Positions 19,626 through 37,583 of a stretch of 64,000 nucleotides of DNA are shown in pieces. The translations under genes were made by a program, and so were the position numbers. Location: positions 124,001 through 188,000 of the forward strand of contig NZ_JAUDCO010000002.1 in the NCBI RefSeq assembly GCF_030373545.1. Reading direction: 5' to 3'. The notes below the pieces were generated by a model. It ran no database searches. It had not been told where the DNA came from and was given only the letters and a program-made list of their open reading frames with translations. This stretch comes from Collinsella tanakaei (lineage in GTDB: Bacteria; Actinomycetota; Coriobacteriia; Coriobacteriales; Coriobacteriaceae). Within the stretch, counting starts at the first letter, position 1. Every line of letters starts with the position of its first letter.

Positions 19626-19715
19626 GGCCGCACACCCGCGCCTCGGACCCGCGCCCGAACACGGCTACACGTACTTCAAACGCACCACTCAAGCTTAGGG
19701 ACGAGGTTGCATAGC

Positions 19716-30203: not shown

Positions 30204-31115
30204 ATGGGCCTGTTCAACGCGGTGATGTCCCTCTCGGGATCCATCGATACCGACCTTATCGAGGACGAGCGCCTGGCGCGCCATACGAGCTATCGCATCG
30301 GCGGCCGCGCCTCGCTGTTCCTCATCTGCCATAGCTACCATTCCCTGCGGCGCACCATCGACGTGCTGACGCGCGAGGAGGTGCCCTGGGTCATCTTGGG
30401 CAAGGGCTCCAACCTGCTCGTCTCCGATGACGGGTACCGCGGTGCCGTCATCACGCTCGGTCGCGAGTTCCAGCGCTCCGTGCTGTCCGAAGACGGTCAG
30501 ACCATGACCGTCGGCGCGGGGGTCATCCTCGCGCGGCTGGTCAACGACGCCTTCAGCCGCGGTCTGTCGGGACTCGAGTTCGCCGTGGGCATCCCGGGCA
30601 CCGTGGGCGGGGCGGTTTCCATGAACGCGGGTACGCGCGATGAGTGGATTGGATCGCTTATCGAGGACATCGTGACCTACAAGCCGGGTGCGGGGATGCG
30701 CCACTATCGCCACGATGACGTGTTTTGGGCGTACCGCGAAAACGGCCTTCCCAAAGACGAGATCATCCTCGAGACGACGCTGCGCCTGACGCCTGCCAAC
30801 AAGGCCGACATACGCGCCAAGATGGAGCGCTATCTGGTGCGCCGCCGCCGCACGCAGCCGGTCGGCTCGGCGTGCTGCGGGTCGGTCTTCCGCAACCCCG
30901 CGGGCAGAAGTGTGGGAGCTATGGTCGAGGAATGCGGATTGAAGGGTTTTTCGGTCGGAGGGGCCGAGGTCTCGCCGGTACACGCTAACTTTATTGTGAA
31001 CAGCGGCACCGCATCTGCGAGCGACGTGGTCGCGGTCATCCAGCACGTATACGAGAAGGTTAAGGAAACGTATGGCGTCGAGCTCCAGCCGGAAGTCAAA
31101 TTCCTCGGCTTCTAA
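30204..31115 (+). CDS. murB: UDP-N-acetylenolpyruvoylglucosamine reductase
   Basis: 303 residues, type II MurB. FAD-binding landmarks are HTSYRIGGRASLFL near 28, LGKGSNLLVSDDGYRG near 65, GIPGTVGGAVSMNAGTRD near 130, and catalytic GSVFRNPAG near 230. It reduces UDP-GlcNAc-enolpyruvate to UDP-MurNAc with NADPH. The final 44 bases overlap the start of ftsQ in another frame, an unusually long overlap that should couple translation of the two. Confidence 0.96.
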   Translation: MGLFNAVMSLSGSIDTDLIEDERLARHTSYRIGGRASLFLICHSYHSLRRTIDVLTREEVPWVILGKGSNLLVSDDGYRGAVITLGREFQRSVLSEDGQTMTVGAGVILARLVNDAFSRGLSGLEFAVGIPGTVGGAVSMNAGTRDEWIGSLIEDIVTYKPGAGMRHYRHDDVFWAYRENGLPKDEIILETTLRLTPANKADIRAKMERYLVRRRRTQPVGSACCGSVFRNPAGRSVGAMVEECGLKGFSVGGAEVSPVHANFIVNSGTASASDVVAVIQHVYEKVKETYGVELQPEVKFLGF

Positions 31116-32616
31116 GCAGAAGCCCACCTTCCGCCGCTCCACCGGCGCCGCATCGTCACACCGCTCGTCGACGGCAAAGGCCGCACCGTCTACACCGGCT
31201 GCGGCTCCGTCCCGTGCCACCCCGAAGCGCGCCCGCACCTACACTGCGCCGACGAAGAAGTCCGCCTCTTTGCGCGTATCGTCCGCGCGCACCGCCAAAT
31301 CCTCATCTGCCAAGCCCACCGCTGCCGCGGCGATGCCCGGCGCGCGCAAGGCGACGCCTGTGACGCGCAAGGCGACACCGCGCGCCGCCGCCGCGACGTC
31401 AATCGCCCGCAAGGGGTCCGCTGCGAGAGGCGCGTCGACGCGCGTGAAGGCGACGTCCGCGACATCTCGCCCGAATGCCCCTTCCGCGCCGAAGGCGAAG
31501 CCCGCGCGTCCGCAGGCGGCAAAGACCCCGCGCAAGAAGAAGCTGACGCTACCCGCAAGCAGCTCTGATCGCGCACGTACGACAACCGGGACGAAGGGCC
31601 CCTCGCTGGGCGATCGTTTGCACGCCGTCATGCCCTCGCGCGGCGGTGCATCGCCGGCTCCGGTTGCCCCTGCGCGTCGCGATGCGTTGCAGCGCCCGCT
31701 TGCGGGTCTGGGCTCCATCGGCGTCGCGCGCCTGGCGATCGTCATCGTGCTGCTCGTCGCCGTGATGGGCGGACTCGGTGCGGCGGTCGTCTACAACTCG
31801 GGCCTTTTCGCCGCCACGAACGTGATCGTCAACGGGAGCGCCCATATCCCGCAGCAGACCGCCGAGCAGCTCGTCGACGTTCCCGAGGGCGCGACGCTGC
31901 TCAACGTCAACGAGAAGGAGCTGTCCGAGCGGTTGGTGGAAAACCCCTGGGTCGAGAGTGTGAACGTCGAACGGGAGTTTCCCCATACGCTCGTCATCAC
32001 GCCGGTGGAGTGTGACGTCTCCGCCATCGCCTACATCGTCGCCGACGATGTCGCCTGGGCGATCAGCGACGACGACGTCTGGATCGCGCCGCTGTCCGTG
32101 GCGGTGCCGCAGGACGATGCCGCCTCGACAGACGATGACGCCGACGGTGAGGCGACAGGTGAGGATGACGGCACGGACGTGGATGCCGATGCGGATGCGG
32201 AGGCGTCGGACGCTGACGGCGAGGACGCCGACGACAGCGCCGAGGCGACCGCTTCGGGTGTCGCGGCGGCGCTCAAGGTCGCGCAGGACAACGATGCGGT
32301 CCTTTTGACCGACGTAGGGGCGGACGTATCCCCCTCGTCGGGCAAGGCGGTCGACTCCGACGTCATCCTGGCCGGCTTGCAATACCTGCACGGGTTCTCG
32401 CCCGAGTTCCTGGCGCAGGTCAAGGATATTTCGGTCCCGTCGATCGAGGCGATCTCGCTTAACCTCGATTCAGGCGTCGAGGTGTCCTTGGGTGCCCCTG
32501 AGGATATACAGCAGAAGGAGCAGGTTATTCGCAGCCTGCTCGAGCAGCAGGAGGGCGTCACCTATATCAACGTGCGCGTTCCCGATGCGTACTCCTTCCG
32601 CAGCGCCGACGTTTAA
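31072..32616 (+). CDS. ftsQ: FtsQ/DivIB-like divisome protein with charge-polarised extensions
   Basis: 514 residues, about twice typical FtsQ. Residues 1-215 are almost only Ala, Ser, Thr, Pro, Lys and Arg, with repeated ARKATP-like units like a histone H1 tail. A single membrane helix (about 218-241, LAIVIVLLVAVMGG) is followed by the POTRA-type domain, ATNVIVNGSAHIPQQTAEQL. The beta domain, starting at ECDVSAIAYIVADDVAWAIS, is interrupted near residues 340-400 by an Asp/Glu/Ala-rich run. It resumes at LLTDVGADVSP. The start lies 44 bases inside murB, with AAGGA upstream. It recruits the FtsL/FtsB/FtsW/FtsI complex; the basic tail would be cytoplasmic and the acidic loop outside. Confidence 0.88.
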   Translation: MASSSSRKSNSSASKQKPTFRRSTGAASSHRSSTAKAAPSTPAAAPSRATPKRARTYTAPTKKSASLRVSSARTAKSSSAKPTAAAAMPGARKATPVTRKATPRAAAATSIARKGSAARGASTRVKATSATSRPNAPSAPKAKPARPQAAKTPRKKKLTLPASSSDRARTTTGTKGPSLGDRLHAVMPSRGGASPAPVAPARRDALQRPLAGLGSIGVARLAIVIVLLVAVMGGLGAAVVYNSGLFAATNVIVNGSAHIPQQTAEQLVDVPEGATLLNVNEKELSERLVENPWVESVNVEREFPHTLVITPVECDVSAIAYIVADDVAWAISDDDVWIAPLSVAVPQDDAASTDDDADGEATGEDDGTDVDADADAEASDADGEDADDSAEATASGVAAALKVAQDNDAVLLTDVGADVSPSSGKAVDSDVILAGLQYLHGFSPEFLAQVKDISVPSIEAISLNLDSGVEVSLGAPEDIQQKEQVIRSLLEQQEGVTYINVRVPDAYSFRSADV

Positions 32617-36872: not shown

Positions 36873-37583
36873 GTGAGCTTCCTAGACGAGATCAAAAACA
36901 GGTTCGCAGCGCGCCAGGCCGGATACGACCAGGATGCGTATGAGGGCGAAGAGGGCTATGCCGACGACTACTACGAGGACGACGCGGCGGGCTATGATGC
37001 GCGCTACGGCTCGTCCGACTCGTATGGCTACGACCAGCAAGAGAGCGGCCACGGCGTGCTCGGTCAGACCCATCGCGGCGAGGCGGAGTCCGTTGCGGTC
37101 TATACCCGCAGCGGCCAGCTTGTCGGCGACGCCGACCGCCATGCCACGACGTTCAACCCGCCGGCGCGCAGCGCGGACTCCGCGTACCGTCCCGGCGCCT
37201 ACGACACGCCTTCGAGCTACGCCGAGGCGCGTCGCCATGCTGCGGTCCAGCAGGCTCCCGCCGTCTCCGATACCGCCGCGCATATGAGCTCGGTCATGAA
37301 CGGGACCCCGCAGCTTCCCGCCTATGTGCTGCGTCCCGAGAGCTATGACGACGTCGAGACGGTGGTGCGCCGCGTGCGCACGCGCCAGCCGGTCGTCCTT
37401 ATCTTCGTCGGCGTGCGCACCGAGATCGCCAAGCGCGTCCTCGACTTCAGCTACGGCTTTGCCTGCGGCCTGGGCGCCACGGTCAAGGAGCTGGGCGACC
37501 GCGTCTTCATCGTGCTTCCGCAGGGCTGCGAGGTCAAGGATTCCGATGTGGCCAAGCTCCGCGCTGACGGCTATCTCAAGTAA
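36873..37583 (+). CDS. sepF: Cell division protein SepF
   Basis: 236 residues, GTG start with GAGAGGTTAGGA upstream. The N-terminus SFLDEIKNRFAARQAGYD is the amphipathic membrane anchor. A long Tyr/Asp/Glu-rich linker (about residues 18-145) follows, then the SepF core: YDDVETVVRRVRTRQPVVLIF, VLDFSYGFACGLGATVKELGDRVFIVLPQGCEV. SepF tethers FtsZ to the membrane, important in Actinomycetota that lack FtsA; no ftsA is present here. The linker is longer than in Bacillus SepF (about 150 residues). Confidence 0.95.
   Translation: MSFLDEIKNRFAARQAGYDQDAYEGEEGYADDYYEDDAAGYDARYGSSDSYGYDQQESGHGVLGQTHRGEAESVAVYTRSGQLVGDADRHATTFNPPARSADSAYRPGAYDTPSSYAEARRHAAVQQAPAVSDTAAHMSSVMNGTPQLPAYVLRPESYDDVETVVRRVRTRQPVVLIFVGVRTEIAKRVLDFSYGFACGLGATVKELGDRVFIVLPQGCEVKDSDVAKLRADGYLK

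Follow-up and report, generated by a model that had tools for sequence, protein, structure and literature searches.

A long polybasic cytoplasmic tail on FtsQ of Collinsella and its relatives in the order Coriobacteriales, with a variable acidic loop in the beta domain

In the window, the whole 64,000-nucleotide stretch of DNA analysed here, the ftsQ gene (31072..32616, + strand; 514 aa, ATG start) encodes FtsQ with a basic disordered cytoplasmic tail at residues 1‒215 (31072..31716, +; composition and AlphaFold2 model). Comparison of orthologues showed that a long polybasic tail of this kind, disordered by prediction, is standard in the order Coriobacteriales. We propose that the tail may act as a low-specificity electrostatic tether, with anionic lipids and/or acidic division proteins as candidate partners, a reading to which we give an even chance of being correct. 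It was ranked ahead of a partner-less topology signal or spacer, nucleic-acid binding and a phospho-regulated switch, in that order.

The product is FtsQ by all testable criteria, namely, the POTRA domain, the beta domain, the single membrane helix and the gene position. Pfam matches were obtained to POTRA_1 at residues 248‒310 (31813..32001, +; E = 3.1e-13; model pLDDT >90) and to FtsQ_DivIB_C at residues 435‒502 (32374..32577, +; E = 2e-4), the latter scoring 22.6 bits against a cut-off of 21. In the AlphaFold2 model, built from 65 class sequences, the POTRA and beta domains were well defined, with pLDDT mostly above 90, and one membrane helix was detected at residues 216‒242 (31717..31797, +). 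The top Foldseek matches were the FtsQ structures 2vh2, 5z2w, 6h9o and 8hhf, with E values of about 1e-7. The POTRA and beta-domain fold is held in common with FtsQ of E. coli and Yersinia (PDB 2vh1, 2vh2, 6h9o, 5z2w, 8hhf), while the Collinsella model differs from these in the large disordered acidic loop within the beta domain. The gene is located in a division and cell wall gene cluster, with murB upstream, ftsZ after it, and sepF and divIVA downstream; the named relatives are Collinsella, including C. tanakaei and C. ihumii. The Pfam domains, Foldseek matches and gene position all bear out the identification as FtsQ made in the original prediction. From the orientation of the FtsQ/DivIB family, we infer that the N-terminus lies inside the cell.

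The tail consists of A (22.8%), S (16.3%), R (11.6%), P (10.7%), T (10.7%), K (9.3%) and D (1.4%), and carries a net charge of approximately +42, with three Asp and zero Glu. It showed no secondary structure in the AlphaFold2 model, in which ten-residue blocks had pLDDT values of 43‒56, and the basic cytoplasmic tail that had been predicted was thus confirmed. Among 43 proteins with a segment preceding a first membrane helix in a genome sample of 526 kb (window included, approximately 24% of the genome), this segment was the most basic. Tails of 69‒322 aa, with net charges of +6 to +56, were present in all 67 loci analysed, 66 from Coriobacteriales and one class relative from another order, and were weakly basic in some members of families f3 and f7. 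Orthologues without the tail were looked for in the order, and none was found among those analysed. In other classes of the phylum, the median tail length was 32 aa by heuristic start choice, with exceptions, and the few very long outgroup tails picked in this way are probably read-through of the upstream open frame. Two loci from these other classes, L105 and L108, had long, strongly acidic FtsQ cytoplasmic tails, with net charges of ‒37 and ‒17 (heuristic start).

The original prediction had named a later translation start as an alternative, which was rejected on the grounds that the ATG, the purine-rich site preceding it and the open frame are all retained throughout the order. A Shine‒Dalgarno sequence, AAGGA (31062..31066, +), lies 5 nt before the ATG, within murB, and a purine-rich site upstream of the ftsQ start is present in most relatives; the in-frame later starts, mostly without a ribosome site, were discarded as the true ftsQ start. 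In ten Collinsella pairs, dN/dS was 0.21‒0.64 for the stretch between residue 16 and the membrane helix, compared with 0.04‒0.28 for the rest of the protein, and the first 15 codons showed almost no change. The MurB codon giving the AT of the ftsQ ATG was T-ending in 48 of 49 overlap lineages, against 38% for T-ending Tyr/His codons across the window; as these lineages are related and the overlap was scored with rule-called starts, this count is strong but not independent. The conservation of the start across the order and the purifying selection on the codons show, at the level of sequence comparison, that the tail is translated. Two loci that seemed to be start-less, L021 and L075, do have an ftsQ start. 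In L021 (Collinsella ihumii), the conserved start and tail are out of frame with the membrane/POTRA part, as a result of either a mutation (frameshift) or an assembly error; the ftsQ locus of L075 contains a run of N.

Shuffling of the tail bases already yielded a net charge of +11 per 100 aa, compared with +18.5 in frame (66 orthologues, p = 2e-12), and therefore base composition by itself would account for about half of the tail charge. In addition, the +1 frame of the tail was as basic as the real frame. The K+R fraction of the tails was, however, 0.224 ± 0.032 without correlation with GC, and only three Asp/Glu changes were observed, against approximately 12.6 expected (summed over three independent pairs). 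This steady, GC-independent K+R fraction and the shortage of Asp/Glu changes support selection on tail charge, and the orthologue comparison showed a tail whose sequence drifts while its charge stays.

According to the nearest competitor of the tether, the tail is an oversized positive-inside signal or an entropic spacer, formed by relaxed GC-rich low-complexity sequence without any partner, and stays basic since acidic residues would upset membrane insertion. The basic peptide obtained from shuffled bases and the low sequence constraint on the tail are consistent with this explanation, as is a general polarity of charge, with basic tails at the N-terminus of FtsI and the C-terminus of FtsW and acidic C-terminal tails on FtsL and MreC; a general topology effect could suffice for such basic-inside/acidic-outside tails on other membrane proteins here. 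In contrast, a length of 69‒322 aa is far beyond topology needs (the 32 aa median of other classes resting on heuristic starts), and both the excess of in-frame charge over the shuffles and the under-representation of D/E substitutions are against it. We regard this explanation as somewhat unlikely. The ORFs showing the charge polarity are located at 19707‒20195, 20205‒21983 and 25998‒27569 of the window and at 367‒1392 of L149.

The electrostatic tether is favoured on the basis of precedents from mycobacterial FtsQ and FtsK tails, the acidic linker of SepF and the lack of detected FtsA. The tail would bind anionic septal membrane lipids, the FtsZ surface and/or the acidic Tyr-rich SepF linker, and this binding would hold the FtsQ/FtsB/FtsL complex at the septum, in a cell with SepF and without detected FtsA. 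Residues 1‒99 of M. tuberculosis FtsQ bind acidic membranes and FtsZ; this cytoplasmic region, approximately four times as long as the tail of E. coli or Yersinia FtsQ, is disordered, and its Arg/Ala helix binds acidic lipids and FtsZ (PMC10036325). It resembles the Collinsella tail in being long and largely disordered, with a strongly basic stretch, and M. tuberculosis lacks FtsA and uses SepF (PMC10036325), which parallels the presence of SepF and the lack of detected FtsA in the Collinsella genome examined here. It differs in having an acidic N-terminal half (‒14) and a 29-residue Arg/Ala helix (PMC10036325), neither of which is found in the Collinsella tail, which is twice as long, has three acidic residues and is rich in Pro, Ser and Thr. 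No Arg/Ala helix of approximately 29 residues was modelled before residue 216, a region of low confidence, and the acidic N-terminal half is absent, the 215 residues including three Asp and lacking Glu. The lack of such a helix in the model counts against the tether, as do the weak constraint on the tail sequence, the net charge of about +11 per 100 aa given by base composition, the equally basic +1 frame, the similar charge polarity of other membrane proteins and the weakly basic tails of some f3 and f7 members.

The second precedent, the N-terminal extension of mycobacterial FtsK, is likewise lineage-specific, long, positive and disordered, and belongs to a division membrane protein; its lipid ligands are cardiolipin and phosphatidic acid, and no DNA binding was detected in gel shifts (PMC13277299). 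FtsK is, however, a different protein, and its lipid binding and DNA non-binding were measured in mycobacteria (PMC13277299). By analogy, the Collinsella tail may work like that of M. tuberculosis FtsQ, although without the features tested there, and acidic membrane lipids, which were also on the original list of partners, appear better supported than DNA or RNA (PMC10036325).

Coriobacteriales have SepF, and no FtsA was detected in this genome: the only FtsA-family match lies in an MreB-like ORF, which adjoins an MreC-like ORF and was rejected as FtsA. The acidic Tyr-rich linker of SepF (36921..37052, +; SepF Pfam match), our proposed candidate partner for the FtsQ tail, was net-negative and Tyr/Asp-rich in all 30 loci read (L157‒L186; phmmer), its charge being opposite to that of the tail. 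The specific proposal that the Arg/Lys tail and the Asp/Tyr linker bind by charge and cation-pi contacts is decidedly doubtful. If true, the contact would connect the Z-ring anchor directly, through disordered segments, to the complex that synthesises the septal wall, a task that FtsA and its partners carry out elsewhere. So far, mycobacteria have provided most of the characterised basic disordered tails of division proteins. The FtsQ tail spans a whole order, mostly of gut bacteria, whose genomes also encode acidic SepF linkers, and it is now directly testable whether tethering by charge takes the place of FtsA in these actinobacteria.

Binding of the tail to DNA or RNA, as a link between division and the nucleoid, was next in the ranking, and we consider it improbable. 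The net charge of approximately +42 with almost no acidic residues is in agreement with such a candidate role, and no MinC match was found in the genome, which leaves room for other site-selection links. The tail shares with the tails of linker histone H1 and with bacterial H1-like proteins a low-complexity, basic, Ala- and Pro-containing composition. H1-type tails are Lys-rich, whereas the FtsQ tail contains 9.3% K, and R exceeded K in 56 of 66 orthologue tails; the FtsQ tail also differs in being on a membrane protein. The repeated ARKATP-like units of the original prediction turned out to be two RKATP words, no more than in shuffles (P = 0.38), which coincide with a 2.3-copy, 21-bp DNA duplication at 31329‒31376. 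No histone or H1-like family match for FtsQ was obtained in Pfam or PDB sequences, composition-bias corrections limiting this search. The description of the tail as histone-like was not supported, in view of its R/S/A/P-rich rather than K-rich composition, the insignificant repeats and the lack of a histone match, and the proposed link to the nucleoid found no support either, since the closest tested analogue, the basic tail of mycobacterial FtsK, gave no DNA shift (PMC13277299). Least probable of all is a putative electrostatic switch, in which Ser/Thr kinases would phosphorylate the tail and thereby detach it from the membrane or partner, in spite of the Ser+Thr content of 27% amid basic residues and the eight Ser/Thr protein-kinase-like matches, several of them strong, in the 2.2 Mb genome.

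On the outer side of the membrane, the acidic disordered loop at about residues 346‒393 (32107..32250, +; AlphaFold2 model) runs between a beta strand (336‒341) and a helix (394‒406), with low model confidence, i.e. disordered, in agreement with the predicted acidic insert in the beta domain outside the membrane. It was the second most acidic 60-residue window in the 526 kb genome sample. The stretch enclosing the loop ranged over 14‒147 aa in the relatives, being 28‒29 aa throughout f2 and f5, 14 aa in f7 and 43‒49 aa in many Collinsella, and acidic expansions were observed in f1, f4, f6, f8 and f9. Since the loop is short in many relatives and acidic expansions occur in other families, it is a separate, optional insert of variable length that several lineages expanded separately. 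In contrast to the tail, the insert did not withstand the comparison of orthologues by which the original prediction could be refuted, since Collinsella relatives have only 43‒49 residues there in an otherwise complete protein. In the window, the loop DNA holds short repeats (6 bp × 4.2 and 9 bp × 4.0), consistent with slippage, and expansion of short repeats is probably how the loop grows; its presence can be explained without assigning it a specific function. Tail length and loop length were correlated in the family of the window (rho 0.65), whereas f6 showed no such correlation; this coupling was left uninterpreted, the two segments being on opposite sides of the membrane.

The start of ftsQ is overlapped by murB from upstream (30204..31115, +; MurB_C and FAD_binding_4 matches). 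This 44-nt overlap (31072..31115, +) encodes the end of MurB, YGVELQPEVKFLGF followed by the stop, and, in a frame shifted by one, FtsQ MASSSSRKSNSSAS; FtsQ residues 1‒15, MASSSSRKSNSSASK, are the shifted-frame reading of that MurB end. An overlap of 40‒60 nt was detected in 52 of 70 class loci; elsewhere in the phylum, 4 nt was the value observed most often. Across relatives, the FtsQ N-terminus has the conserved motif MASSSxRKxNSSAS. In f5 members, in which murB ends upstream, the SSAS motif is gone and the basic tail is retained. Three ftsQ loci, L008, L057 and L070, were without detected murB. In L008 (around 1110‒1180) and L057, a fossil-like MurB C-terminus (HGIRLSPEVELLGF and YGVELQPKARFAGF, respectively) remains in the shifted frame as the FtsQ N-terminus, while in L070 the motif is lost. 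The conserved first 15 residues are therefore best read, from these comparisons, as overprinted on the murB end and not as a binding motif. A functional signal was rejected as the main cause of the conservation, which tracks the murB overlap. No description of the overlap was found in a non-exhaustive literature search; it illustrates that a neighbouring gene can impose a conserved-looking N-terminal motif, mistakable for a functional signal.

A different motif, SVRVGDL-like, was kept approximately 20‒30 residues before the membrane helix in otherwise divergent FtsQ tails of f2 (L002, L042, L045, L051, L058‒L060, L062, L069 and L070), and is possibly a candidate linear binding motif. The related words TVREYR and RVGDIR were observed in f6 and f7 tails.
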